Part shown: positions 17,251-35,201 of the stretch, piece after piece
How the letters are laid out: each line of letters opens with the position of its first letter
How positions within the stretch are numbered: the first letter of the stretch is position 1
Assembly (NCBI GenBank): GCA_013140715.1
Contig: JABFSG010000071.1
Span: 1-37,221 of the forward strand
Reading direction: 5' to 3'
Source: Nitrospiraceae bacterium
Lineage (GTDB): Bacteria > Nitrospirota > Nitrospiria > Nitrospirales > Nitrospiraceae
Length of the DNA stretch: 37,221 nt
Made by a program: the position numbers and the translations under genes
The notes under the pieces: generated by a model
Databases searched by the model: none
Seen by the model: the letters and a program-made list of their open reading frames with translations, nothing else
Told to the model about the DNA's origin: nothing

Positions 17251-18987
17251 TCACGGTTCGAGCCCGATAAGACGGAACGTTTTCTTGAGGATTGCCGAAG
17301 TGTTCGGGGTTTCGAAGAACGACCGAAAGATGTCGTGCACGACGGTCGTATGGGCGGCAAGGTCGGTTTGAAATTGCTTAAGGGCAATCGGTCTATCAGC
17401 TCTGTCATAGCCCATGCGGATGGCGCAACGTTCTAATTCTTTCTGTTGATCCGGGAGCGCATGGGTCTGCAGATCGTGCACCATCTGGAGTTTGTGCTCC
17501 ACGTCTCGGAGAAACTTATAGGCACGTGTCAGAGAAGCCTGTTGTTTTCCCGACAAAATACCGGCCTTCTGAAGCCGCGCCAATGAACCGATGGTTCCCC
17601 GGCCCAGAATCCCCGGCAACCGCCGGCCAGCCAGCACCTGGATGGTTTGGACGAGAAATTCGATTTCCCTGATACCCCCGACACCCAGTTTGACGTTGCG
17701 CTGCTCATGCCCTCGCTCCGCCATCTTCGCATCGATTCGCTCTTTGACCGATCGGACCTCCTCCACGATCGCAAGCCCCTGCTCTGCATTCAATTCTTTT
17801 GAGGCCGGCACCAACACAAATGGCCGTACCATCTTGATGAACGATTTCCCGACTTCCTTTGACCCGGCGACGGGCCAGGCTTTAAGCAAAGCCAATCTCT
17901 CCCACACCTGGCCTCTCGTCCGATAGTATTTGGCGTAGTCCTCGAGCGACCGAGTAAGCTGTCCCACCGTACCTTCTGCGCGCAAGCGGAGGTCCACGCG
18001 ATAGACGTATCCCTCACGAGTCTGTTCAGTCAACGCCTTCGTGAGTTCCCGCGCGAGAATTTCAAAGTATTCTTCATTGGACAGTTTGCGCTGCTGAGGA
18101 CCCTTGGTCTTCGTGTGTCCGGAGGCAGTCGGCCTGGTTGTCCCTTCATGGGATTCACAAACATACAGCACATCGACGTCCGAGCTGTAATTGAGTTCAT
18201 GTCCGCCCAACTTCCCCATCGCAATGACCGTGAAACCGGTCTCCACCCACCGTCCGGCTCGATTCTGATGCATGGGAATGCCGTGGCGGGCCCGTAGATC
18301 TGCATCCACAATGCGATAGGCTGCATCGATAAGGACCGACGCCAGATCCGAGAGGGACGCGGTGGTTTCCACTACATCCCCTAACCGCACAAGATCCCGT
18401 ACGCCGATACGCAACATCTCCCGATGACGGAATCGCCTGAGCAAATCCAGCCTGAGTTCAGTGGCATCGACAGCCTCCAAACTCTGCCGGATCGTCCGCT
18501 CCATCCCTCCCCTGGTCGGTGCGGTGGACAATACATTCTGTTGGGCCAGCCAGTACAAGAGGAGAGGATCGCGGACGAGGGTGAAGGCGAGTGAGTCGCT
18601 GTTTCCGAAAATCGTGCAGACCAAATCCAACATGCGGGGAGCGCTACGCAGATATTCCAACACAGCTGATCGGCTGACTCCGCTTGCGAGCCAACGTTCC
18701 CAGTGGTTTAAGGCCTGGTCCGGATCGGCGGTTCGACCGATGGTCTCGAGCAACGAAGGCAGTATTTCCGCCAACTGGCGTCGCTGGTCCGTATCGCCCG
18801 CCATCGACTGCAGGTTCGCATAGGCATCCTGAATCCGGCGGAGACCATAGGGCTGAAGAATTGTGGCAAGCTGTTCCAGTCCCAGCCCTGACGCCAAGAG
18901 AACGGGGGTCGGGTCCGGACGAGACGCCCACTCGAGTTTTGGAATGGCGCAATAGCGCGGCACCGGCTTCTTGGACTGGTCTGTCAT
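17251..18987 (-). CDS. glnE: Glutamine synthetase adenylyltransferase, N-terminal (deadenylylase-like) half as a separate protein
   Basis: A 578-residue protein with one nucleotidyltransferase domain. The motif AMGKLGGHELNYSSDVDVLYV (256-276; Asp270 and Asp272) is the GlnE catalytic signature. KLGVGGIREIEFLVQ and the helical regulatory segment follow. The N-terminus resembles that of bifunctional GlnE, whose N-terminal half removes AMP from glutamine synthetase. Full GlnE has about 950 residues and two such domains, so here the enzyme is split. The partner is the divergent gene at 19053. A TATAAT lies eight bases upstream of the ATG, implying a very short or absent leader. Confidence 0.85.
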   Translation of the reverse strand: MTDQSKKPVPRYCAIPKLEWASRPDPTPVLLASGLGLEQLATILQPYGLRRIQDAYANLQSMAGDTDQRRQLAEILPSLLETIGRTADPDQALNHWERWLASGVSRSAVLEYLRSAPRMLDLVCTIFGNSDSLAFTLVRDPLLLYWLAQQNVLSTAPTRGGMERTIRQSLEAVDATELRLDLLRRFRHREMLRIGVRDLVRLGDVVETTASLSDLASVLIDAAYRIVDADLRARHGIPMHQNRAGRWVETGFTVIAMGKLGGHELNYSSDVDVLYVCESHEGTTRPTASGHTKTKGPQQRKLSNEEYFEILARELTKALTEQTREGYVYRVDLRLRAEGTVGQLTRSLEDYAKYYRTRGQVWERLALLKAWPVAGSKEVGKSFIKMVRPFVLVPASKELNAEQGLAIVEEVRSVKERIDAKMAERGHEQRNVKLGVGGIREIEFLVQTIQVLAGRRLPGILGRGTIGSLARLQKAGILSGKQQASLTRAYKFLRDVEHKLQMVHDLQTHALPDQQKELERCAIRMGYDRADRPIALKQFQTDLAAHTTVVHDIFRSFFETPNTSAILKKTFRLIGLEP

Positions 18988-18995
18988 GGGCAGGC

Positions 18996-19024
18996 ATTAT
19001 ACTGATACATTGGCGCTCGCACAA
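18996..19024 (-). promoter_or_regulatory. Promoter of the leftward glnE half, near-leaderless
   Basis: On the minus strand TTGTGC (19019-19024) and TATAAT (18996-19001) are 17 bases apart, a good sigma-70 spacing with a perfect -10. The ATG begins at 18987, eight bases after the -10. Transcription should therefore start at or within a base or two of the start codon. Confidence 0.6.
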
Positions 19025-19040
19025 TGAACCTCAGTTCGGT

Positions 19041-19046
19041 TATACT
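19041..19046 (+). promoter_or_regulatory. Candidate -10 element of the rightward glnE half
   Basis: TATACT ends six bases before the ATG at 19053, and no ribosome binding site is visible, so a leaderless transcript is possible. No convincing -35 hexamer is seen at the right distance, which lowers confidence. Confidence 0.4.
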
Positions 19047-19052
19047 CCGAAC

Positions 19053-21326
19053 ATGACGGACGGGCTTGGATCACGCGAGTCGATCATCAAGACTCTGACT
19101 TCCATTTGTCCGGATGTTGACGATGAGATACTCAGGGACTTCGTCTCCCGGATGGATCCCGAGTACTTCGAACGATTCCAACCGGACACAGTCGCACAGC
19201 ATATCCAACTTGCCAGCCGACTCACACCGGGCCACCCCTGCGAATTATCGATACTCGACAAGTATGAAGGGCGATATGAGATCAGTATCGTCGCCTACGA
19301 TTATTTCTCGGAATTCGCCGCCATCTGCGGCGCGCTCTCGGCCTTCGGGCTCAATATCGAAGAAGGACGGGTCTATACCTTTGTGGAAGCCGTGCCTTCC
19401 CCACCGTTGCGCAGAGAAACTCCCTCTGCGACCCGCCGGCCTAAAGGCCGGCCTGGCCTAAGCCGCAAGAAAATTGTCGATGTATTCTTAGTGCATCCCC
19501 TGGAGCGCACAGGCTTTCCCGCCCCACAACACAACGCCCTCAGACAGACGGTCACCGAGATCGTGCAACTGCTGGACACCGGACGCTTCGATGAGGCGCG
19601 TCAACATGTCAACCGCCGGCTCGTCGAACGATTGGACAGGCATCGAAGCGCCTTTACCGGCCTGTTGGATACAGTGAAAATTACCTTCGACAATAGCCAG
19701 TCGCCGACCGATACGATCATGGACATCACATCGGACGATACGCCCGCCTTCCTCTATGCGTTGGCGAACGCGCTGGCCATGCGCAATATCTACATTACCA
19801 AGGCCCAGATCGAATGCGATGGATCCAAACTACACGATCGGTTCTTTGTGAGAAATCGCGATGGGCAGAAACTGCTCGATCCCGCCGATCAGCAACAACT
19901 GCGGCTGACCGCCGTGCTCATCAAACAATTTACCCATGCCTTGACCTGGGCATCCGACCCGGCCAAGGCTCTGGCATCGTTCGACCACTTTCTCGACCTC
20001 ATCGTGGCGGAAATGGGCAAGAAGGGAAAAAATAAGGCGCTCGACTTCATCAGCGACAAGAAAACGTTTCCCTTGCTTGCGCGGCTGCTCGGTGCCAGCG
20101 ACTTCTTGTGGGAAGACTTCCTACGCCGCCAACATAACAACCTCCTTCCCCTGCTCACGGAGTACCGGGATGCGCCTCTGATCAAACCGCAGACGACCCT
20201 CAGGAAAGAGCTCGACCGCGCGGTGGCGCGAGCCAGAACGGACGAAGCGCGAAAAGACGCCTTGAATCGATTCAAAGATAATGAGCTATTCCGAATCGAC
20301 ATGAAACATATCGTCGATGTGTCGCCCAGTTTGACCAATTTCTCCCTGGCCCTCACACAACTCGCCGAAGTCATCATGGCCCGTAGCGTCGTCGACTGCC
20401 AAACAAAGCTGGGCCGGCTCTATGGTCGTCCCCTGCTCCAAAATGGGAAACCCTGCCCCTTTGCGGTGCTGGGGCTTGGAAAATTCGGCGGACGGGAACT
20501 CGGCTATGCGTCGGACATCGAACTCTTGTTTGTCTATGGAGGGGAGGGCGCTACGAACGGCAAGACAAAGCTGGAGAACTCAGAATACTTCGAACGCCTC
20601 GTGCAAGAGCTGCTGCAATGGATCGAGGCTAAGCAGGAAGGCATCTTCCGTGTCGACGTGCGGTTGCGCCCGCATGGAGGGAAGAGCTCGCTGGCCAACG
20701 TATTCGAGGCAGGCCGCGACTATTGCAGTCCAACCGGATCCGCCGCGCCGTTCGAGCGGCAAGCCCTCATCAAACTCCGGCATATTGTCGGCGATGCCAC
20801 ATTGGGCCGGCAGATGGAAGCGCACCGGGACTCCTTTGTCTACGCTAAAGATCCCTGGGACATTCCCGCAGCAGTCGAGCTCCGAAAGCAGCAGCTGAGA
20901 CAGTTCGTTAAGCCGGGGCAGATCAATGTGAAGTATGGCGTAGGAGGATTGATCGACATCGAATATGCCGTGCAGTATCTGCAAGTGATGCATGGGCACG
21001 ACCACCCGAACCTGCGTACGCCGAATACGCTGCAGGCGCTCGCTGGACTGATCAAAGAGGGGTTGGTCTCGCGCACCGATGGAGAGGGCCTCAGGAAAGC
21101 CTACGTCTTCATCCGCATCCTGGTCGACGGATTGCGCATGGTCCGCGGAAATACCAAGGATCTGGTTCTCCCTCCGCCCGACTCTGAAGAGTTCGTCAGC
21201 CTCGCCCGCCGCGTCGGCTATACGACAGACGACTGGCGGGCCTGCGCACGCCATTTACAGGCAGACATCGCTCATCACATGCAGACATCCCAAGTTTTTT
21301 TCTCACAACGGTTCGGCAATCTCTAA
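19053..21326 (+). CDS. ACT-ACT-GlnE fusion: glutamine synthetase adenylyltransferase, C-terminal-like half
   Basis: From the ATG at 19053 the product has 757 residues; the longer frame to 18684 runs antisense through the neighbour. Residues about 75-112 (ISIVAYDYFSEFAAICGAL) and 222-272 (DDTPAFLYALANALAMRNI) look like two ACT domains. Residues 472-495 (VLGLGKFGGRELGYASDIELL) carry a nucleotidyltransferase motif with Asp488 and Glu490, so the usual D-x-D is D-x-E. VKYGVGGLIDIEYAVQYLQ then matches the C-terminal, AMP-adding half of GlnE. ACT domains are typical of GlnD, not GlnE, so this is an unusual build, perhaps sensing an amino acid directly. Confidence 0.8.
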   Translation: MTDGLGSRESIIKTLTSICPDVDDEILRDFVSRMDPEYFERFQPDTVAQHIQLASRLTPGHPCELSILDKYEGRYEISIVAYDYFSEFAAICGALSAFGLNIEEGRVYTFVEAVPSPPLRRETPSATRRPKGRPGLSRKKIVDVFLVHPLERTGFPAPQHNALRQTVTEIVQLLDTGRFDEARQHVNRRLVERLDRHRSAFTGLLDTVKITFDNSQSPTDTIMDITSDDTPAFLYALANALAMRNIYITKAQIECDGSKLHDRFFVRNRDGQKLLDPADQQQLRLTAVLIKQFTHALTWASDPAKALASFDHFLDLIVAEMGKKGKNKALDFISDKKTFPLLARLLGASDFLWEDFLRRQHNNLLPLLTEYRDAPLIKPQTTLRKELDRAVARARTDEARKDALNRFKDNELFRIDMKHIVDVSPSLTNFSLALTQLAEVIMARSVVDCQTKLGRLYGRPLLQNGKPCPFAVLGLGKFGGRELGYASDIELLFVYGGEGATNGKTKLENSEYFERLVQELLQWIEAKQEGIFRVDVRLRPHGGKSSLANVFEAGRDYCSPTGSAAPFERQALIKLRHIVGDATLGRQMEAHRDSFVYAKDPWDIPAAVELRKQQLRQFVKPGQINVKYGVGGLIDIEYAVQYLQVMHGHDHPNLRTPNTLQALAGLIKEGLVSRTDGEGLRKAYVFIRILVDGLRMVRGNTKDLVLPPPDSEEFVSLARRVGYTTDDWRACARHLQADIAHHMQTSQVFFSQRFGNL

Positions 21327-21569: not shown

Positions 21570-24500
21570 TCAATCTTCCTGAATGACAAGCAGCATCTGC
21601 CCGGCGGATACGTTCCCACGCTCCTTACAAAATATCTGCCGCACTGTGCCGTTGACCGGCGCATCCACCGAAATTTCCATCTTCATCGATTCCACAATCA
21701 GCAGAGGATTTCCCGCCTTGACGTGCTGCTCCGGCTTGACGAGCAGCTTCCACACCGTACCGGTCACGTGCGCGGTAACGACGCACACCCCCTCCGGCAG
21801 ATCCAGTTCGCTCTGCGCATCCGACTCGTCGAGCGTGACTTCACTCACATACTCTGCTTGACCCTTCTGCTTCCAGCGTTCGCGCTCGGCTTCGAATGCG
21901 ACTTGTTGCCCGGTTTTGAATGCGGTGATTGCCGCCGCATTCTGTCGCAGGAAGGTGTTGTACTGTTTCAAACTGAACGTGGTTTCTTCGACGCGCAGCT
22001 TAAAGCTCCCGGCGATAAAATCTTTACGCAGTTGGAGCAACTCACTCTCGCTCACCGGATAGAAACGGATCTGATCGAAAAAGCGCAGGAGCCACGGCTT
22101 CCCATCCTTGAAATCCGCGGTCTGGCGATACCGGTTCCACATCTGCACCGTGCGTCCGACGAACTGGTACCCGCCGGGGCCTTCCATGCCATACACGCAG
22201 AGATAGGCTCCGCCTATTCCCACCGCATTTTCAGGCGTCCAGGTGCGCGCCGGATTGTACTTGGTGGTGACGAGACGGTGGCGTGGATCGACCGGGGTCG
22301 CCACCGGCGCGCCCAGGTACACGTCGCCCAGTCCCAGCACGAGATAGCTGGCCTCGAACAGGATGCGCTGCACCGTTTCGATGCTGTTCAGTCCGTTGAT
22401 GCGGCGGATAAATTCGATATTACTGGGGCACCAGGGCGCATCGTTGCGCACCGACTGCATGTACTTCTCGATCGCCAGCCGCGTCGCCCCGTCGTTCCAT
22501 GACAACGGCAGATGCACAATGCGCGTCGGCACTTCCATTTCCTCGATGGCGGGGAGGGTCTGTTCCGCAGCGATGAGTATGTCGAGCAATGTGGCGCGCG
22601 GCAGCAGGCGCGAATCGAAATGGATTTGCAGCGAACGGATGCCCGGCGTCAGATCGATGATCCCTTTCAGGCGGCCTTCATCGATGGCTCGCTGGACCCA
22701 TTCCGTCAGCGCATGGATGCGGAAGCGCAGGTTGAGATCGAGGACCGGCGGGCCATACTCGATCAGCAAATTCTTGTCGCCAGACTGGCGATACACGACT
22801 TGCATCTGCCGGGAGCTTTCCAGAATGTTATGCAGGATGGGGCTGCCCATGCTCTGCGCGTGGGACTGGGTCTGCAGAACTTTCGACGGTTGGAGATCCC
22901 TGATCGTTTCGTCCTGCGACTGTTCCAACTCCAGCGCCTGTTCCGCCGACATCCAGCGGAAGTGCAGTCGATCGCCCGGTTTGAGTTGCCCCATCTTCCA
23001 TAACTCCGCCGCCACGATGGTTGCAGGACAGACGAAGCCGCCGAGGCTCGGTCCATCTGGCCCGAGTATCACCGGCATGTCGCCGGTGAAGTCCACTGCG
23101 CCGATCGCGTACGCATTGTCGTGGATGTTGGAGGGGTGCAATCCCGCCTCGCCGCCATCGCTGCGCGCCCATTTCGGCTTCGGGCCGATCAGGCGTACGC
23201 CGGTGCGGCTGGAGTTGTGATGGACTTCCCAGTCGGTGGCAAAGAATTGCTGAATATCGGCTTCGGTAAAAAAGTCCGGCGCCCCGTGGGGGCCGTACAG
23301 GACACCGATTTCCCAGTGGTCGGTATAGTGCGGAATCAGTTCTTGCGGCAGGGTGCGGCCGGGATGGTTCTGCGCTGCGCCGATGTGCAGGATGTCGCCG
23401 TTACGCAGGGCGCGTCCGGCATGTCCGCCGAAGAGGCCGAGGGTAAAGGTGGCTGCGCTGCCCAGATAGGTTGGTACCTGAAATCCTCCCTGTACTGCCA
23501 GGTAGGCTCGGCAGCCGTGGCTTTTGATCCGCCCGAACTGGAGCAGCGAGCCGGCCTTGACGGCATGCGATTGCCACTGCACCAATGGTTCGCTGTCCAG
23601 GCGCACGTCGATCGGCGCGCCGGTCACGGCAATCACGCTGTCGCAGTTGAACCGAAGGGTCGGACCGATCACGGTGATTTCGAGCCCGGCCATATCTTCT
23701 GCGTTGTCCACCAGGCGATTGGCCAAACGGAATGCCAGACCGTCCATCGGTCCGGATGGCGGTACACCGACATGCCAGTAGCCGAGCCGCCCCGGAAAAT
23801 CCTGGACCGTGGTCTGCACACCTGATTGAATCACCTCGATGGTATGGGCCAGGTAATGGAAGCCGTTCAGGAAGCTCGTGGTGTGCCGGCCGCGATGGAA
23901 TACCGTGCTGCGCAAGACCTGCTTGAGATAATTCAGATTGGTTTCGATGCCGTGGAGCGCGGTCGCATCGAGTGCGGCGGTCAAATTCGCGATGGCCTGT
24001 TCGCGGTCTGCCGCATGCACGATGATCTTGGCCAGCATCGGGTCATAGAACGGAGAGACCTCGATGCCGCGTCCCACCCAGGTTTCGACGCGTGCGGTAG
24101 CCGGGAGTTCCACTGCTGTCAGTGTGCCGCAGGAAGGTTGAAACTCTTTGGCCGGATTTTCGGCATACAGGCGCGCCTGTATGGCATGACCGCGTGGCTC
24201 GATGGTGAATGAATCCAGCGGCGGCAGGTCTCCGGACGCCTGGCGCACCATCCACTCCACCAGATCGATGCCGGTGACTTCTTCGGTGACACCGTGCTCG
24301 ACTTGCAGCCGCGTGTTGACTTCGAGGAAATAGAACTCACCGGTGGATGCATCGACAATGTATTCCACCGTGCCGGCCGATTGGTAGTTGACCGCCTTGC
24401 CCAGGCGCACAGCGGTCTGCAACAGAGCCTGGCGTAATTGGGGAGTCAGATTGGTCGCCGGCGTTTCTTCGATGACTTTTTGGTTACGCCGTTGTACCGA

Positions 24501-25184
24501 ACAGTCGCGTTCTCCCAGCGCGATGACCCCGCCGGCGCCGTCGCCGAATATCTGTACCTCGATATGGCGGGCATTCTCGACAAACTTTTCCAGGAATAGG
24601 CCGGCGTCCTTGAAGTTGTTCTGTGCCAGGTATTTCACCGACTCGTAGGCGCCGGTCAATTCATCCCTGTTCCAGCACACACGCATGCCGATGCCGCCGC
24701 CGCCGGCGGTGCTTTTCAGCATGAGCGGATACCCGATCTGCGCCGCTTCGTGCAGCGCCTGATCTACGCTCTCCAGCAAGCCGGTTCCGGGAAGTAACGG
24801 CGCCTGATTGTGCAGGGCCAGGGTGCGCGCCGTATGCTTCAACCCGAAGGCTCGCATCTGCTGCGGGCTGGGGCCGATGAACCGTATGCCTTCGGACGCG
24901 CACTGTTCGGCGAACTCCGCGTTCTCGCTCAGAAAACCGTAGCCGGGATGGATGGCGTGCGCACCGCTGTGCCGCGCGACCTGTAGGATTTTGTCGGCGC
25001 GCAGATAACTGTCCGACGCGACTCCGCTCCCGATGCTGTGGGCTTCGTCGGCTTCCGCGACATGCCGCGACCATGCATCGGCTTCGGTATACACTGCGAC
25101 GCTCTTCACTCCGATACGGCGCAATGTGCGGATGATGCGGCAGGCGATGGCGCCGCGATTGGCAATCAGTACTTTCTCGAACAT
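21570..25184 (-). CDS. Biotin-dependent guanidine carboxylase (urea carboxylase family)
   Basis: A 1204-residue three-part enzyme. Residues about 1-450 are biotin carboxylase ([20 protein letters not shown] at the start, GGGGIGMRV, and [17 protein letters not shown]). The middle matches the KipA/KipI-type carboxyltransferase domains ([18 protein letters not shown] type motif, [11 protein letters not shown]). The C-terminus has a biotinyl domain with ESMKMEIS. It was long called urea carboxylase. With two DUF1989 proteins, a permease and a guanidine riboswitch upstream, guanidine to carboxyguanidine is the likely reaction. No allophanate hydrolase domain or gene is present. Confidence 0.88.
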
Positions 25185-25236
25185 GACCGGCCTCCTGTTG
25201 CGTTCCGTCCGACGAGAGGCAGACCTCCTACCGGGA

Positions 25237-25908
25237 TTATGTGTCAGCAGGATTCCATATCAGCAAGCGAATCGGCGTGGGGTTATAAGCATTGCACGGG
25301 TTGTTCAATTGTGGGCAGTTCGAAATTAACACGACGACGTCCATCTCGGCCCGCATCTCGACATACTTGCCCGGCGCCGACACACCGTCTACAAATTCCA
25401 ACCCGCCGCTCTCCGTCACCGGGACGTTCATGAAGAAATTGATGTTGCTGGGCAGATCGCGCTTGCTCATGCCGAGTTGTTCACAGACCGGTTCATGCGC
25501 CAGCGCATGCAGGAAACTGTCTCGACAGCTGTGCATGGGATATGTGTCCAGCGCGTACCGTACGGTGTTGCTCTCCGCTGCGCAGGCGCCGCCCAGCGTA
25601 TCATGCCGGCCGCAGGTATCTGCGACGATGGTGAGCATGACATTGCCGAAATTTGAATAGAGCTTGCTGCCGGTGGTCAGATAGAGCCTGTTCTGCCGGC
25701 GGATCGTATCGGTGGCGCTGTAGCGTTCCAGCGCGCGGGAGGCGTTGTAGAACAGCGTATCCACCGCCTGATTTCCTTCCAGATCGACGATGCGGAATAC
25801 TTGCCCTTTCTTCACCGGCTTGGCCCAGGGCTCGCCCGCCTGGCAGATCTCATCCACGACGGCGAGGTGTGGATCAAGCTTGCTGACGACGAGATCTTGC
25901 GCGCTCAT
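25237..25908 (-). CDS. Carboxyguanidine deiminase subunit (DUF1989, urea carboxylase-associated)
   Basis: A 223-residue DUF1989-family protein. Motifs are [66 protein letters not shown] and [10 protein letters not shown]. The Cys/His-rich TCGRHDT segment likely binds metal. In the guanidine pathway two such subunits form the enzyme that removes ammonia from carboxyguanidine to give allophanate. Its start overlaps the stop of the related upstream gene by four bases, so a heteromer is likely. Which subunit is CgdA or CgdB I do not decide. Confidence 0.85.
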
Positions 25909-26636
25909 GCGACACCTCTACCGCAGGCGTACAGACGTCTGGTGTTGTGCAGACCGCGCATGTTTTCGGCGATACGCGCACACTCCGCGGCTGCTCCAGG
26001 CGTCGTGGCGCTCGCTGCCAGGCCGACTGCTCCCGGTCGATAGGTGTCTGCCGGATCGAGCGGATGCGGCGCAGCGGACAGCACCATCAGTGTGTCCATC
26101 TCGAAACTCAAATCGACATAACTGCCCGCCTTGCTGTTGCCGATATGGAAGACGAGTTTGCCGGATGCCGTGGCGGTCACCTTGCTGAAAAAATTGATGT
26201 TGGACACGACATCGCGCATGCCCAGGCCCCATTTACCGAGCTCGATCAGCATCCCGTCCAGCCCGCTGCGAAACATACTATTGCGGTGTTCTTGATACCG
26301 GGCGACCCCGTATTGCTGCCGTATCAGTTCGGCATCGCTCACACCGCAGACCGTGTCGTGCCAGCCTGTGGTATCCGCGGCGATGTAACAGAAGATCCGC
26401 CCCATATCGGAATAGCAGGCATGTCCCTTGGTCAGCCGGAATGTATGTTGCGACTTCAGCGTGTCCGCCATATTGTAGCGCTCCAGCCTCTCGTCCTGAT
26501 TGTAAAACAGCACTGCAGCATTGGCCCCGCCATCCACGTCCGTCAGGCGCAGGGTTGTGCCGCGACGCACAAGACCGGACCAATGACAGCCTCCGGGGAT
26601 ACGCTCTTCCCATCTCTCTGTGTGTTGCTGCTCCAT
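25905..26636 (-). CDS. Carboxyguanidine deiminase subunit (DUF1989, urea carboxylase-associated), paralogue
   Basis: The ATG at 26634-26636, six bases after GAGGAG, gives 243 residues. The frame to 27038 overlaps the permease and is rejected. It shares the DUF1989 layout with its neighbour: [70 protein letters not shown] and [18 protein letters not shown]. In place of TCGRHDT it has TTGWHDT, so one metal-ligand Cys is absent and the subunits may not be equivalent. It lies between the permease (26 bp) and the second subunit (4-bp overlap). Confidence 0.85.
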
Positions 26637-26662
26637 GTTGTGCTCCTCGTCAAAAAATACGT

Positions 26663-28099
26663 TCAACTCCGACGGTTGTTTCTGAGCAGAATATACGGCG
26701 TGGCGATGCAGAGAATACTGCCCAAAACTAGAGGTACAGCCCACAGTTGCCACCAGGGTGCATTCGGTGAGACGGCGTAGGCGCGAGGCCAGGCGATGTT
26801 CACAAATTCGAAGACCGACCAGATGAACGCGATCGTATTGATCATCAATCCCCAGACGCCCAGCTTCAGCTCGCCCAATGCCGGGTTCCAGCGACCGGTC
26901 AGACGGGTGAACAACCCAACTCCGGTGGTCATAGCAAACATGGCGTACAACCCGCCTGTGCCAAAGGCGATAATCGTCGCCACCGCCCCGTCGTTCAGTC
27001 CGAACAGCAGCCCGAGTCCGGCCAGCAGCACCACACAAATCACCGCATTGCGTGGAATCTTGGAGGCGGTCACCCGGCTGAACATCAGAGGCATATTGCC
27101 CTCACGGGCCATGGAGTACACGATGCGCGATGTGTATTGCACCATGGATGCCCCGCAAGCCAGGAACGCAACCATGACGATCGCCAAAAACGGCGCCTCA
27201 GCCCAGGCCCCGAAGCTGCTGGCAATCACAGGTGTGACAGGATCGGATGTCGCGCTGGTATTGACCAGGGCCTCTCGATTAAAGCTCAATGTCAGAGCGG
27301 CGGAGTTGAAGAGCACCACCCCTCCCACCATGCACAGAGATAAAAAGATCGCGCGTGGAACCATCCGCTTGGGATTATGGGTTTCTTCGGCAATGGTGGA
27401 GCAGGCGTCGAACCCGATGAAAGCCCAACCGGAAATGGCAAGCGCCGCAAGAAATGCCGCGGTCTGGCTGGGCGCAGTCCCTGTGCCGAGATGCTGGAAC
27501 AGCTCGGAAAATGAATGTTGTCTGAAAAAGAAAAACAGCAGCAGCGCTACGCCGAACGAACCGACGATTTCCGCATAGACGCCCAGCGTAATGACCAGTT
27601 TAAATATATTTACGTGAGCCAAGTTGAGGAGCGTGCAGAGCGACAAAAATATGGCGCCCCATATGACTAAAGTGAGTCCTCCTCCATTCTCGAATCCAAA
27701 AAAAAGCGCAAGCCACACCCCGCCGGTATAGGCGGTCGTCGTGAGCATGGCGATCGTGGAACTGACGTAGATGACACCGGCATATTTCCCCGTGGTGACG
27801 CCTCCGAGCTGATGCGCCCACTTGTACGCGCCACCCGCAATCGGAATCTGCGAGGATAGCTCAGCGTAGACGGTAGCCACAAACATCTGCATCACGAGAC
27901 AGAGCGCCAGCGCGCCAAACCACCCGCCCCCCGTCACCACCGTCTGCACACCGATGATGGCATAGAGCCCTGCCACCGGCGAAACGGTTGCGAATCCAAT
28001 AGTCAGGCTATTCCAGAGACTCAGACTCCGGTTGAGTGTCTCAGTCCCAGTCGTGGCGGTCGCAGAAAGAGCCGCATCCGAACTTTCTGCGATTAACAT
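26663..28099 (-). CDS. APC-family permease, likely guanidine importer
   Basis: A 478-residue amino acid-polyamine-organocation transporter with about 12 hydrophobic segments. ATVSPVAGLY-like and AGGAYKWAHQLGG (helix 1 and 2-3 region, here IPIAGGAYKWAHQL) and GFDACSTIAEETHNPKRMVP are family hallmarks. It is the first full gene after the guanidine-I riboswitch and is followed by both deiminase subunits and the carboxylase, which is why guanidine is the inferred substrate. AGAGAGGA precedes the ATG by five bases. Its start overlaps a short upstream frame (28093-28170) by seven bases, so its translation may be coupled. Confidence 0.85.
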   Translation of the reverse strand: MLIAESSDAALSATATTGTETLNRSLSLWNSLTIGFATVSPVAGLYAIIGVQTVVTGGGWFGALALCLVMQMFVATVYAELSSQIPIAGGAYKWAHQLGGVTTGKYAGVIYVSSTIAMLTTTAYTGGVWLALFFGFENGGGLTLVIWGAIFLSLCTLLNLAHVNIFKLVITLGVYAEIVGSFGVALLLFFFFRQHSFSELFQHLGTGTAPSQTAAFLAALAISGWAFIGFDACSTIAEETHNPKRMVPRAIFLSLCMVGGVVLFNSAALTLSFNREALVNTSATSDPVTPVIASSFGAWAEAPFLAIVMVAFLACGASMVQYTSRIVYSMAREGNMPLMFSRVTASKIPRNAVICVVLLAGLGLLFGLNDGAVATIIAFGTGGLYAMFAMTTGVGLFTRLTGRWNPALGELKLGVWGLMINTIAFIWSVFEFVNIAWPRAYAVSPNAPWWQLWAVPLVLGSILCIATPYILLRNNRRS

Positions 28100-28842: not shown

Positions 28843-30252
28843 CTACGCATCATAATAGAGAACATACTCGTAGGGATGTGGCCGCAACCGCATGGGATCG
28901 ACTTCCTTGGTGCGTTTGTAGCTGATCCAAGCCTCGATCAGGTCCTTACTGAAGACCCCGCCCTTGAGCAGGAACTGATGGTCCTGTTCGAGGCTGCGCA
29001 AGGCTTCATCCAGACTGCCCGGCATCGTACGGATCTTCGCTGCTTCCTCCGGCTCGAGATCGTACAGATCCTTTTCAGCCGGTTCACCGGGATTGATCTT
29101 GTTCTCGATCCCGTCCAGCCCCGCCATAAGCATGGCCGGAAAGGCCAAGTACGGATTCGCAGTCGGGTCGGGGAAGCGCACCTCGATTCGCTTGGCTTTT
29201 GGGCTCGGTGAATACATGGGAATCCTGACGCCCGCCGATCGGTTCCGGCTGGAATAGGCCAGCAGAACCGGCGCCTCGAAGCCGGGGGTCAACCGCTTGT
29301 AAGAATTTGTCGTCGGATTCGTAAAGGCCGCCAAAGCCGGCGCATGTTTCAAGATGCCCCCGATGTAATAGAGACAGAGTTGCGAGATACCGGCATATTC
29401 CTTCCCCGCAAACAGGGGCTTCCCGTCTTTCCAGATGCTTTGGTGCGTATGCATCCCGGTGCCATTGTCCCCAAAAATCGGCTTGGGCATGAAGGTGACG
29501 GTCTTGCCATGGCGGCGGGCCACGTTCTTGACGATGTACTTGTACATCATCAATTTATCCGCCGTCTTGACCAGCGAGTCGAAACGCATATCGATCTCAG
29601 CCTGGCCCGCCGTCGCAGTCTCGTGGTGGTGCTTTTCAATGTAAATCCCGGCCTTCTGCATCTCCAGAACCATTTCGCTGCGGATGTCCTGTTGCGTATC
29701 GGTCGGTGGAACAGGAAAGTAGCCTTCCTTGTGACGGATCTTTCCACCCAGGTTATGGCCTTCCTGTCCGATGTTCCAGGCGCCTTCTTCGGAATCGATA
29801 TGGTAGAAGCCGCTGTGGCCTGTCTGGTCATAGCGAACCTGATCGAAAATGAAGAATTCCGCTTCCGGCCCCCAGTAGGAGGTATCCCCGATCTTCGTGC
29901 TCTGGAGATATTTCTCCGCCTTCTGCGCCACAAACCGCGGATCGCGGTCGTAGGGCTCGCGCGTAATCGGATCGAGCACATTACCGATAAGGCTCAGCGT
30001 CGGAACGGCGCAGAACGGATCGAGCGAGGCCGTGTTCGGATCCGGCACCATCAACAGGTCGCTATCATTAATCGCCTTCCAACCCCGGATCGACGAACCG
30101 TCCAACCCGGATCCATCCTTGAACAACCCTTCGGTCAGTTCTTCTACGGGAATAGAAAAGTGCTGCCAAGTGCCGATCAGATCCACGAACTTCAAGTCCA
30201 CGACTTGAACTTTATGCTTCTTTGCGAACTCCGATACCTCGCGGGGATTCAT
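28843..30252 (-). CDS. glnA: Glutamine synthetase, type I
   Basis: A 469-residue GSI that joins ammonia and glutamate with ATP. Landmarks are the Asp50 loop [13 protein letters not shown], the [10 protein letters not shown] metal site, [10 protein letters not shown], and NRSAGVRIP. Tyr397 in [10 protein letters not shown] aligns with the E. coli adenylylation site, so the enzyme should be controlled by the GlnE proteins encoded nearby. The ATG at 30250-30252 is chosen because AAGGAGG is ten bases upstream; the TTG three codons earlier is too close to it. glnD ends 29 bp upstream, so the two form an operon. Confidence 0.96.
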
Positions 30253-30281
30253 TCCAACCAAGCCTCCTTATGAACTGCGAT

Positions 30282-33032
30282 TTATGATGCTGACCCTATC
30301 ACGATGCCGCCCGCCGTGCCAACCTGCCGATCCATGAACAGATCGATATCCTGCTTGACGGTCGCGCGGATGGCCTCCAGCCGAGCAGGATCTTCGAGCT
30401 TGGCCCCCTGCTGGTCTGTCACATAGAACACGTCCGCCACCTGATGCCTGCCGCCGGTACGCAGAGACTGTTGTATATCGTCATCCAGCCTGGTCGAAAT
30501 CCGAGCCGCTTGGACCGACAGACCGAGATTGAAGATGCTGCGGGTAATAGCATACAACAGTCCTTGCGTATCGTCAGCAAACACATCGACAATTGTGGAC
30601 CGGTCGCATGTTTCGTTATCGATCTGCACCTCTGCCGCCTGGCGAGGAGCCGGCAGCCGGCTCACAGCGGACATCCTGGTATAGCGGCTCATCAGCCGCT
30701 CGACTGCCTCGTTGCCCTTCAACACTTGAATAATCATCTCGGCGATGGTCGCCCCGCGCTCGGGCGGGGGAACACCGACAAAATCGGGATCGGATGCCTG
30801 GAAGGTATTGACGACGACTCCGTCTTCCCGGGTCGTGATCTGGGCATCGACAATCTCAAGCCCCTGGGATGCCATCACACCGGCAATTTTCCATACGATG
30901 CCTCCGGTAAGGTTATCGTGGGTAATCACCGTATACTCGCAGATACCGAGCGCTTCATTGAAGCGATCCTCGACCAGTACATCGCCTGCCTGGAGCCTTC
31001 CGATCGCCCCCAGGTGGCTCGCGATCTGCTTCGGATGGATCCCGTAGAGATAGCGCAAAGGAAACTGGTTCAGTTGCGATTCAATCCAGTCCAGGCCAAC
31101 AGATGCCGTGTCCGGAAACTCGCGCGCCACTTCGCCGATCAATTGCTTGAACCGCTCGGGAGCGGCAACCTCGTCCCGCTCACCCGATACGACCGGCAGG
31201 GTGCGCAGATAGAGTTCGACGAGCAGGGACTCCTTCCACTTGGTCAAGACCCCTGGCCCCACCGCCGCAATATCGGCTGCCGTTAGGAGTAACATCTTAC
31301 GAAGAACATCCGGTGTCCCCATTGCCTTGGCGAAGAACCCGATCACCTTCTGGTCGTAAGGATCGCGCCGAAAGGCCGTGTGGGCCATGAGCAGATGTTT
31401 ATGCACCAGAAACGCCAGCTTCCTTGTCTCCTGTTCGTCGCAGCCCAGCCGCGCCGCAGTCTCTTCCGCAATCGTCTTGCCCACTTCGCAGTGATCTTCC
31501 TTCCGCCCCTTTCCCAAATCGTGCAACAGGATCGCCAGGTGCAGCAGATCCTTCCGCTTTATCTCCTGGCAGACCTTCCCTAGGACGCCTGTTTCCAACG
31601 CGAAGGCCTCTGCTTTTGCCACAGCCAGAATGGAATGTTCGTCCACGGTGTACTTGTGATACTGATTGAACTGCATCAGCCCGCGAAGGGCCGCAAAGAC
31701 CGGGATAATCTTTTCCAACAGGTGGACGCGATGCATCGATTCAAGCGTGCCTGCTACCCCCCCAGACCCGGCGAGGATCTGCAGAAACATGCGGCTGACC
31801 TCAGCGCTCCGAAAGGCCTCGCTCGACATGCTGTCCATCTGGCTGCGGATCTCGTCCAATAAGTCGCTGTCGATCTTGAGGCCGCGAGACCTTGCCGTCT
31901 CGAACAGCTGAAGCAACAGTTCCGGCCTATCCAAAACCCGAGCCCGCAGCTCGGAGGGAACGGTCAGTTCTTGGCCGTCCACCGCGAAATAGCCGTCCAC
32001 CGTGGCAGCAGGCAAGGCTCCGATCGAACGGCGCTTTTCAGGGGACACCAGACAACGGTCCACAAACCTGAGCATCGTTTCATGGAGCCCCATCGTCAGC
32101 CGGTAGTATCGCTGCATGAACTGCTCGACTCCCAGGAGATTAGGCTGGTCATGGAATCCGTACAGAGAGGCCAAACGGACCTGTTCTTCGAACGACAGAA
32201 TTTCTTCCGCCCGTCCAGCGTGAAGATGCAGAAACGCCCGCACACTCCACAGAAAATCGCGGGCCTCCGTCAAGGAGTGAAAATCCGGTCTCGAGAGGAA
32301 CCCACGATCCGCCAGGTCCTGGAGCGACGTGGCCTGGAATCTGGCCATGCCGGCCCACCGGAGCAGATGAAAGTCCCGCACTCCTCCTTTGCTCTTCTTA
32401 ACGTTAGGCTCCAGGAGATAGACTGTCTGTCCGAACTTGACATATTCGCGGCGGCGCTCCTCGACCTTCTGCTCGATGAAACTCTCGATCCCCTGACCGA
32501 CGACTTCCTGAGCATATCGGCGGCTGAACTCCTGGAACAGGTAGGGGCTGCCGGTTAAAAACCTGGAGGACATCATGGCGGTGCGAATCGTCAGATCCTT
32601 CGCGGCCAGATCGACACAATCCTGCATCGTTCTCATACTGTGACCGACCTGCAATCCGAGATCCCAGAGATAGTGGAGCACCTCACGGAACAGAGCCGGC
32701 GCTGCTTCCCCGGCCTCCTCGCGGAAGAGAAACATGAGGTCGATATCTGAATAGGGAGCTAACTCACGATGACCGTACCCTCCCAGCGCCACCAGACAAC
32801 AATACTGGTCCCCTGCAACCTGCGCCTGCTCACCGGACTGCCGCATAGCATTCTTGTATTTACCAATAATCAGCCCATCCACAAACTCCGTCAGGTCTGC
32901 CATCGCCAGAGCCGCCGGGACCCCCTCCATCAGTTTCTGCTGGAGGGCAAGCCGATGCCCTGCCAGGGTGGAGGCCGATGCGACCTCCACCCCGCGCAAA
33001 AGCCCAGGCTGAAACCCATTGTCCGATGCCAT
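30282..33032 (-). CDS. glnD: Bifunctional PII uridylyltransferase/uridylyl-removing enzyme GlnD
   Basis: The nitrogen sensor that adds UMP to PII when glutamine is low and removes it when glutamine is high. From the ATG at 33030-33032 it has 916 residues. The nucleotidyltransferase motif LGGYGHRELAPYSDIDLMFL is at 83-102, the HD hydrolase domain (LAILLHDLGKG) lies in the middle, and two C-terminal ACT domains bind glutamine (EYTVITHDNLTGGIVWKIAG; TQGLLYAITRSIFNLGL). The open frame extends to a GTG at 33083, but that lies in the T-tract and stem of the upstream terminator, so the internal ATG is preferred. The N-terminal start is otherwise weakly supported. Confidence 0.93.
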   Translation of the reverse strand: MASDNGFQPGLLRGVEVASASTLAGHRLALQQKLMEGVPAALAMADLTEFVDGLIIGKYKNAMRQSGEQAQVAGDQYCCLVALGGYGHRELAPYSDIDLMFLFREEAGEAAPALFREVLHYLWDLGLQVGHSMRTMQDCVDLAAKDLTIRTAMMSSRFLTGSPYLFQEFSRRYAQEVVGQGIESFIEQKVEERRREYVKFGQTVYLLEPNVKKSKGGVRDFHLLRWAGMARFQATSLQDLADRGFLSRPDFHSLTEARDFLWSVRAFLHLHAGRAEEILSFEEQVRLASLYGFHDQPNLLGVEQFMQRYYRLTMGLHETMLRFVDRCLVSPEKRRSIGALPAATVDGYFAVDGQELTVPSELRARVLDRPELLLQLFETARSRGLKIDSDLLDEIRSQMDSMSSEAFRSAEVSRMFLQILAGSGGVAGTLESMHRVHLLEKIIPVFAALRGLMQFNQYHKYTVDEHSILAVAKAEAFALETGVLGKVCQEIKRKDLLHLAILLHDLGKGRKEDHCEVGKTIAEETAARLGCDEQETRKLAFLVHKHLLMAHTAFRRDPYDQKVIGFFAKAMGTPDVLRKMLLLTAADIAAVGPGVLTKWKESLLVELYLRTLPVVSGERDEVAAPERFKQLIGEVAREFPDTASVGLDWIESQLNQFPLRYLYGIHPKQIASHLGAIGRLQAGDVLVEDRFNEALGICEYTVITHDNLTGGIVWKIAGVMASQGLEIVDAQITTREDGVVVNTFQASDPDFVGVPPPERGATIAEMIIQVLKGNEAVERLMSRYTRMSAVSRLPAPRQAAEVQIDNETCDRSTIVDVFADDTQGLLYAITRSIFNLGLSVQAARISTRLDDDIQQSLRTGGRHQVADVFYVTDQQGAKLEDPARLEAIRATVKQDIDLFMDRQVGTAGGIVIGSAS

Positions 33033-33063
33033 CGTCACAATGCGGACATTCCCTCTCGTCTGC

Positions 33064-33110
33064 GAAAAATCAGGGACAGGCACCCGCCGGAGGCGTGAGC
33101 CAGTCCCTGA
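33064..33110 (-). terminator. Intrinsic terminator after the PII gene
   Basis: On the minus strand CAGGGAC (33103-33109 complement) and GTCCCTG (33071-33077 complement) close a stem with an inner ACGCC/GGCGG helix, followed by ATTTTT. It begins one base after the PII stop codon. It separates amtB-PII from glnD-glnA and argues against the longest glnD start. Confidence 0.8.
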
Positions 33111-33524
<414 letters not shown>

Positions 33525-33550
33525 TCATCGATGGTCTCATGGCCTGTCTA

Positions 33551-34906
33551 TTACACGTGATAGGCTTTTTCACCGTGCTGACTGACATCCAAGCCTTCTT
33601 GTTCTTCATCCTGCGTCACGCGAATGCCCAGTATAACATCGATGATCTTGAGAATGATCCAAGTGCCGATCGCCGTAAAGGCCGCCACCGAAAGCACCAT
33701 GACGATCTGAGCCCCCATGAGAGAGAAGCCGCCCCCGTAGAACAGCCCATCGGCCGGAGAACCCATCGCCTTTGAATTGAACAACCCTCCGAGGATGCAG
33801 CCGGTCGCTCCACCGACACCGTGGACCCCCACGACATCGAGCGCATCATCGTAACCGGCAGCGCTCTTTATGAAGACCACGCAGATATAACAGATAGACG
33901 CGCCCGCAAGACCGACGAGGAATGCCGGAAACAGAGAGACAAATCCTGCTACAGGGGTAATGGTGGCCAACCCTGCAATCGTTCCGGTAGCCACACCGAG
34001 CGCGGTAGGCTTCCCACGATGGGCCCATTCGATCAACATCCAGACCACCGTCGCAGTAGAGGCTGCAATGTGGGTTGCCACGAAGGCGCCGATCGCCTGG
34101 CCATTCGCTCCAAGCGAACTACCGGCGTTGAAGCCGAACCAGCCGAACCAGAGGAGCCCAGCCCCCAGTACCGTGAGGGGAAGGTTATGGGGAGGCATGG
34201 GCGTATTCGGATAGCCTTTACGTTTGCCGAGCATAATGCAGGCAACCAACGCTGCCATACCGCAGGTCACGTGCACAACCGTGCCTCCGGCAAAGTCCAG
34301 AGCACCCATCGCCCCCAACCATCCACCGCCCCAGACCCAATGGGCTACTGGATAGTACACCACCACCGACCAGATGCCGAGAAACCACAACATCGAGGAA
34401 AATCTGATACGTTCCGCAAGGGCCCCCGTGATCAGGGCCGGGGTGATCGCGGCAAACATGAGCTGGAACACCATGAAGAGTTCGTGTGGAATCGTAGGCC
34501 CGTAGGTTGAATGGGGCTCGACTCCTACCCCCTTCAGCATGAACCAATCGAGATTCCCAATCACGCCTCCCACATCCGGGCCGAAGGACAGACTGTACCC
34601 GAACACCACCCAAGCCATGCTGCCCAGGCAGAGGCAGATAAAGCTATGCAAAAGCGTACTCAGAATGTTTTTTTGTCTGGTGAGTCCTCCGTAGAAGAGG
34701 GCCAAGCCCGGCAGGGTCATCAACATGACCAGCGCCGAGGAAACGATAATCCAGGCCGTATCGCCCGTATCGGCCTTCGGCGCAGCCGGGGCTGCGTCTT
34801 GTGCAGCGACATCTTGCACATTGAAAGCCGTCCATCCTGCCAAGACGACAAGGCAAATCAGGAAGACCGGCAAAATCTTTTTCATGTTGCTCATAGCCGA
34901 TAGCAT
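33551..34906 (-). CDS. amtB: Ammonium transporter AmtB
   Basis: A 451-residue Amt/Rh-family channel. The N-terminus MLSAMSNMKKILPVFLICLVVLAG looks like a cleaved signal (quoted in part: KKILPVFLICLVVLAG), then 11 membrane segments from about residue 50. Conserved are ALFYGGLTRQKN, DFAGGTVVHVTCG (first pore histidine), WFGWFGFNAGSS, and DVVGVHGVGGATG (second pore histidine). I chose the ATG at 34904-34906 because AAAGG is eight bases before it; other ATGs at 34915, 34894 and 34885 are possible. Linked to the PII gene, which normally plugs AmtB in ammonium excess. Confidence 0.95.
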   Translation of the reverse strand: MLSAMSNMKKILPVFLICLVVLAGWTAFNVQDVAAQDAAPAAPKADTGDTAWIIVSSALVMLMTLPGLALFYGGLTRQKNILSTLLHSFICLCLGSMAWVVFGYSLSFGPDVGGVIGNLDWFMLKGVGVEPHSTYGPTIPHELFMVFQLMFAAITPALITGALAERIRFSSMLWFLGIWSVVVYYPVAHWVWGGGWLGAMGALDFAGGTVVHVTCGMAALVACIMLGKRKGYPNTPMPPHNLPLTVLGAGLLWFGWFGFNAGSSLGANGQAIGAFVATHIAASTATVVWMLIEWAHRGKPTALGVATGTIAGLATITPVAGFVSLFPAFLVGLAGASICYICVVFIKSAAGYDDALDVVGVHGVGGATGCILGGLFNSKAMGSPADGLFYGGGFSLMGAQIVMVLSVAAFTAIGTWIILKIIDVILGIRVTQDEEQEGLDVSQHGEKAYHV

Positions 34907-35201
34907 AGGTTGCATCCTTTCATCCCCTGGTCAGGACGAGGTTGTCATGATGTTCGTCAACACGCTCTACAGGACTCCCCAAGATCGTCTCACGCGGCCC
35001 ATTCGACTGAAATCGGGACAAGTCTCTCCCTCGAAGCCGGCATGGCTCCGCAACTCTCTCTTGAACCTGTCGAAGGATCGGCCTACCCGAGTGGATTAAC
35101 GAAGCAGCGGCCCTAACAGTTGTTCCTTGCACGAGATCACCTCAATCCCGCACAGGCCTGCCTGTGCCTGTCCGCACAAGAAGCGAGTAGCTTCTATTGT
35201 G

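Follow-up and report, generated by a model that had tools for sequence, protein, structure and literature searches.

A class-wide two-gene form of GlnE in Nitrospiria with a GlnD-type ACT module on its predicted adenylylating half

This study concerns a 37,221-nucleotide stretch of DNA from a Nitrospiraceae bacterium (assembly GCA_013140715.1, contig JABFSG010000071.1, positions 1–37,221 of the forward strand; hereafter the window), which is contig C78 of a genome of 3.58 Mb that is 99.7% complete. The window carries two genes, here called P1 and P2, the products of which correspond to the two halves of GlnE, the protein that adenylylates and deadenylylates glutamine synthetase (GS). The genes are arranged head to head and are transcribed divergently from opposite strands:

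P1, 17251–18987, minus strand: 578 amino acids, N-terminal half of GlnE, predicted GS deadenylylase (adenylyl-removing).
P1–P2 gap, 18988–19052: 65 bp between both start codons, which must hold or adjoin the two presumed promoters.
P2, 19053–21326, plus strand: 757 amino acids, tandem ACT module and C-terminal half of GlnE, predicted GS adenylyltransferase.

P2 begins with the ATG at 19053 and ends with the stop codon at 21324–21326, and the longer open reading frame at 18684–21326 in a mechanically made list adds a superfluous stretch upstream of P2, since the P2 orthologues align from M1. A preliminary description of this DNA had proposed a GlnE divided between two divergent genes, and both genes were recovered here, 65 bp apart. 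It had also proposed separate promoters; the divergent order does imply separate transcription, but some families carry the pair in convergent orientation, and a scan of the 65 bp gap for a sigma-70 consensus promoter gave no match. Among the best 80 of 234 relatives in a named genome collection, the closest relative of P2 belongs to Nitrospira sp. CG24E, with 95% identity, and the best matches in this collection identify the genome of the window as that of a Nitrospira.

Each protein pairs a single nucleotidyltransferase domain of the GlnE type with a single HEPN-like GlnD_UR_UTase domain, the latter spanning residues 414–558 in P1. The Pfam scores are far over the cut-offs in all cases, with 201 bits (PF03710) and 100 bits (PF08335) for P1, and 144 and 52 bits, respectively, for P2. 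No Pfam match to an HD domain, the uridylyl-removing domain, was found in P2. The AlphaFold2 model of P1, with a predicted local distance difference test score (pLDDT) of 90.1, superimposes on 1v4a with a Z score of 43.0 over 423 residues, and that of P2 (pLDDT 81.8) superimposes on 1v4a and 3k7d with Z scores of 39.4 and 38.7. A profile search of the genome found neither a one-piece glnE nor a further full-length PF03710 protein; the third PF03710 match is weak and is GlnD, encoded at 30282–33083. The domain content anticipated by the preliminary description, namely GlnE-type domains in both proteins and two ACT domains in P2, is thus present, and the genome holds no full-length glnE besides the pair. 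Because both P1 (407.9 bits) and P2 (196.4 bits) score under the 487-bit equivalog cut-off of the NCBIfam model for bifunctional GlnE, this model misses or misnames them.

The identity of the two halves was examined with a tree of 91 half-sequences, among them 24 P1, 24 P2 and the separated halves of Escherichia coli GlnE and of 20 one-piece GlnE proteins from the phylum. A branch with 100/100 support unites P2 with all of the one-piece C-terminal halves, and P1 falls with the N-terminal halves on the other side. The active-site motifs agree with this placement: P1 and the one-piece N-terminal halves share ELNxSSDxD, whereas P2 has E[LM]GYASD[IV]E, compared with E[LIM]x[YF]xSDLD in the one-piece C-terminal halves. 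The assignment of an N-like and a C-like half made from the first inspection of the DNA is therefore supported by both the tree and the half-specific motifs. We also considered P2 as a second N-terminal half, as its best stretch in NCBIfam lies in the N-terminal half of the GlnE model, and rejected this on the same tree and motifs. In E. coli GlnE, GS is AMPylated by the C-terminal domain and deAMPylated by the N-terminal domain (PMC12409994). By this correspondence, the predicted deadenylylase is P1 and the predicted adenylylase is P2. In a small sister group with one-piece GlnE (L086 and L087, from genomes G021 and G012), the C-terminal half has the motif GYGSDLD and lies nearer to P2 in the tree than any other (94/71); this one-piece form may represent an intermediate before the split.

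The catalytic acids are D270, D272 and D332 in P1, invariant in 21 of 21 sequences, and D488, E490 and D535 in P2, invariant in 30 of 30. The glutamate at the second position of P2, already noticed in the preliminary description, occurs in all 51 sequences compared, the diversity of which extends down to 41% identity. Its invariance at this depth, together with that of the other two acids, suggests that the glutamate is a fixed trait rather than a sign of decay and points to a working site under selection. In polymerase-beta-type nucleotidyltransferases both Asp and Glu are allowed at this position.

The N-terminal part of P2 consists of two further regions:

P2 residues 1–175, 19053–19577, plus strand: GlnD-type helical lead-in and first ACT domain (ACT1), from GlnD profiles, the AlphaFold2 model and structure comparison.
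P2 residues 209–299, 19677–19949, plus strand: second ACT domain (ACT2), from PF24931 and the structure of a SerA ACT domain.

Residues 24–284 of P2 match positions 617–842 of the 850-position GlnD model TIGR01693 (1.3e-21), that is, the end of GlnD that carries both ACT domains, although in P2 this module is N-terminal. P2 also matches the GlnD encoded in the window (1e-11), and judged by these matches the module is of the GlnD type. In a scan restricted to the first 205 residues, each of the 30 orthologues matched TIGR01693 (best 3.3e-8), and ACT2 was recognized by PF24931 in 30 of 30 (2.5e-9 in the P2 of the window). No Pfam match was found for ACT1 in this P2, and ACT1 is assigned from GlnD profiles and its fold. 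The AlphaFold2 model shows an ACT fold in both domains, and in it ACT1 comprises a β-strand (75–82), an α-helix (85–97), a β-strand (100–110), a low-confidence loop (111–139), a β-strand (140–149) and an α-helix (157–175). Residues 55–172 superimpose on the ACT-like structure 9c7n with a Z score of 9.4, and residues 215–293 on the SerA ACT domain 3k5p with a Z score of 8.5. The two N-terminal ACT domains reported in the preliminary description are therefore well founded; the ranges given for them, 75–112 and 222–272, were correctly placed but too short, as ACT1 extends over approximately 75–175 and ACT2 over approximately 209–299. Searched by profile against solved structures, neither ACT1 nor ACT2 gave a significant match. 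The closest solved structure to residues 7–190 (19071–19622) is the ACT region of the large (180-kDa) glutamate dehydrogenase from Mycobacterium smegmatis (9hv0), an unexpectedly close match with a Z score of 14.1 over 146 residues.

The distribution of the pair was surveyed in 196 genomes of Nitrospiria, including that of the window, and, across three further groups of Nitrospirota, in 170 genomes. Within Nitrospiria, 168 genomes carry both genes, three carry P1 without a match to P2 (G173, G192 and G314), one carries P2 without P1 (G107) and 24 carry neither, and the split pair is a class-wide trait. The lone genes may be explained by fragmentation: those in G173, G192 and G107 are partial, and that in G314 starts near a contig end. 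In G173 (C3, 32113–33084), where P2 was not found, only residues 251–574 of P1 match, within a 661-amino-acid frame, which may be a decaying copy. The genomes without the pair include small members (1.7–1.8 Mb) of the genus of the window (G137 and G290), and streamlined Nitrospira from the Great Lakes have been reported to lack glnE (PMC9239080). In the 143 genomes in which both genes were placed, the pair is divergent in 138, convergent in four (G095, G133, G139 and G208) and on different contigs in one, with a median gap of 138 bp between the matches; the coordinates show a further convergent pair in G246. The divergent pair is present on the complete chromosomes of the cultured N. moscoviensis and of Ca. 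N. defluvii. Among the 170 genomes of the other groups, the strong matches listed are GlnE domains without ACT domains, nearly all in frames of one-piece size, and matches to the ACT part, where there are any, lie in separate, mostly GlnD-sized frames. The best 80 of the 234 relatives of P2 all come from Nitrospira and its relatives, except for one titled Nitrosospira (L167), which is possibly mislabelled. A study of N. moscoviensis reads refers to the adjacent genes NITMOv2_1289 and NITMOv2_1290 as GlnEB (PMC6131200); if these are P1 and P2, the two-gene form may have been touched on earlier in annotation. Within the literature covered, which was mainly openly accessible, and by the terms searched, no paper joins a GS adenylyltransferase with an ACT domain.

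Further genes of nitrogen control lie in the same window:

glnA, 28843–30261, minus strand: type I GS, the expected substrate (NCBIfam GlnA, 2.9e-204).
glnD, 30282–33083, minus strand: PII uridylyltransferase, with an HD domain and, at the C-terminus, ACT domains (NCBIfam UTase_glnD, 7.7e-190; Pfam).
PII gene (GlnB/GlnK family), 33132–33449, minus strand: T-loop RGAEY (PF00543, 5.7e-31; translation).
amt, 33551–34915, minus strand: assigned from the sequence, without a profile search.

These genes form a compact cluster running in one direction (amt–PII–glnD–glnA, 28843–34915, minus strand) at approximately 7.5 kb from P1 and P2, with the PII and GlnD genes at 9–14 kb. The RGAEY loop of PII carries the tyrosine that is the site of uridylylation. 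In six genomes (G067, G101, G111, G155, G190 and G226) glnA directly adjoins P2, tail to tail. The GlnA of the window has the AMP-acceptor tyrosine, Tyr400, in the motif DLYDLEPEE, and this tyrosine is kept in 27 of 27 GlnA sequences from genomes with the pair. In one genome without the pair (L203, in G296) the residue is Phe (DLFELSA), so that the modification site has been lost naturally; as this is the only such case among the 22 readable pair-less genomes, loss of the tyrosine was uninformative as a test of function. Between P2 and this cluster, at 21570–28099 on the minus strand, the translations suggest a biotin-dependent enzyme of 1204 amino acids that resembles urea (or guanidine) carboxylases and, after it, a pair of proteins like the urea-carboxylase-associated ones and an amino-acid-type permease, an arrangement that resembles clusters linked to guanidine use.

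Taken with the tree, the domain content and the conservation of the pair, it is probable that P1 and P2 jointly replace one-piece GlnE and that the ACT pair acts, most likely, as an amino-acid switch beside the GlnD–PII route. P2 would add AMP to Tyr400 of GlnA, turning the enzyme down, and P1 would remove it, presumably when PII is uridylylated. The arrangement probably arose in an ancestor of Nitrospiria, in which the halves of GlnE came apart and the adenylylase half acquired, at its N-terminal end, the C-terminal helix–ACT–ACT module from a GlnD-type protein. Such a natural split appears workable because separated halves of E. coli GlnE retain their single activities. GlnD is regulated by glutamine via its ACT domains (PMC12702975), so glutamine is the first candidate for the ligand of the homologous module in P2, and its binding would raise the activity of P2 when nitrogen is plentiful. 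The preliminary description had suggested that P2 could read an amino acid without PII, and this suggestion is weakened by the PII and GlnD genes in the same window and by the kept RGAEY loop. As GlnD, PII and GlnA are all encoded there, direct sensing would supplement control by PII rather than replace it: the GlnD–PII route probably still feeds the deadenylylase P1, and the ACT pair would be the own metabolite input of P2. The more specific proposal, that a GlnD-type glutamine sensor on a stand-alone adenylyltransferase provides a one-step shut-off from glutamine to GS beside PII, with the deadenylylase separately made and controlled, is put forward tentatively and with slightly more doubt than belief.

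Several observations weigh against the proposed replacement and switch. The ligand loops of the ACT domains, DYFSEF in ACT1 and DTPAFL in ACT2 (with Gly in four of 30), depart from the usual DxxG form; since they are changed although near-invariant among the orthologues, any assignment of the ligand is tentative. The second acid of P2 is Glu instead of Asp, and the stem branch of P2 is long (1.24, compared with 0.38 for P1), so the function of P2 may have shifted. The acceptor tyrosine of GlnA is also kept in 21 of the 22 readable genomes without the pair, and its conservation alone therefore proves little. Because the P1 and P2 genes adjoin, their joint loss could be a single deletion.

Some of these points also bear on other explanations. 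P1 and P2 might form a standing heterodimer that works like one-piece GlnE under PII, with an ACT pair that only dimerizes or docks and senses nothing; this would fit the loops without the usual Gly, the presence of PII and GlnD, and the fact that the genes are neighbours in 142 of the 143 placed genomes, whichever their orientation. Nevertheless, in GlnD the homologous module senses glutamine (PMC12702975), and the almost invariant loop residues DYFSEF and PxFL are as expected for a ligand or partner site; overall, we regard the heterodimer as unlikely but deserving of serious consideration. It is less probable still that P2 now acts on a different target or has become a regulatory pseudoenzyme, the DxE in place of DxD having abolished AMPylation of GS. 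The glutamate and the long stem speak for such a drift, but an active site in which Glu is present in 51 of 51 sequences, and both remaining acids in 30 of 30, appears to be under selection, and glnA adjoins P2 in several genomes. In addition, related polymerase-beta-type enzymes carry either acid there, and an E52D mutant of ANT-4 in the PDB implies a natural Glu.

That the split is an artefact, a one-piece glnE that has been frameshifted, rearranged or misassembled, has nothing in its favour except the split itself. The identical two-gene form in 168 genomes, the complete chromosomes among them, and the opposite strands of P1 and P2 refute this explanation, to which we assign practically no probability; a pseudogene is likewise ruled out by the conservation across genomes.

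The pair combines features of several known systems. Like E. coli GlnE (1v4a and 3k7d; PF03710 and PF08335), it comprises both halves, each with a nucleotidyltransferase and a HEPN-like domain and with the catalytic acids, and its expected substrate is a type I GS that has the acceptor tyrosine. It differs in being encoded by two genes on opposite strands, with a single unit per protein, in the Glu that replaces the second Asp of the adenylylase half and in the ACT pair of P2, which none of the one-piece GlnE proteins examined contains. GlnD shares the related nucleotidyltransferase fold and has a C-terminal helix–ACT–ACT module homologous to the front of P2, whereas P2 lacks the HD domain, carries the module at the opposite end and has the C-terminal half of GlnE as its catalytic part. 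The best Pfam match of ACT2 is ACT_ACR9_3rd, which recalls the plant proteins ACR9 and ACR11, although the ACR proteins have no catalytic domain; binding of ACR11 to plastid GS has been proposed, and the same paper (PMC12702975) disputes this connection with GS in plants. The large NAD-dependent glutamate dehydrogenase of M. smegmatis (9hv0) is a different enzyme, without a significant sequence match to residues 7–190 of P2.

Adenylylation of GS is the textbook case of opposing activities in one chain that are switched by PII. An ancient natural split with a transplanted sensor indicates that the halves of GlnE need not be joined, and P1 and P2 offer a natural system for testing the roles of the linkage between the halves and of PII. 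The pair is relevant to the nitrite-oxidizing Nitrospira and their relatives, in which the control of ammonium assimilation has been little studied; if the proposed switch is true, the ACT-bearing P2 may let the cell shut nitrogen assimilation down directly.

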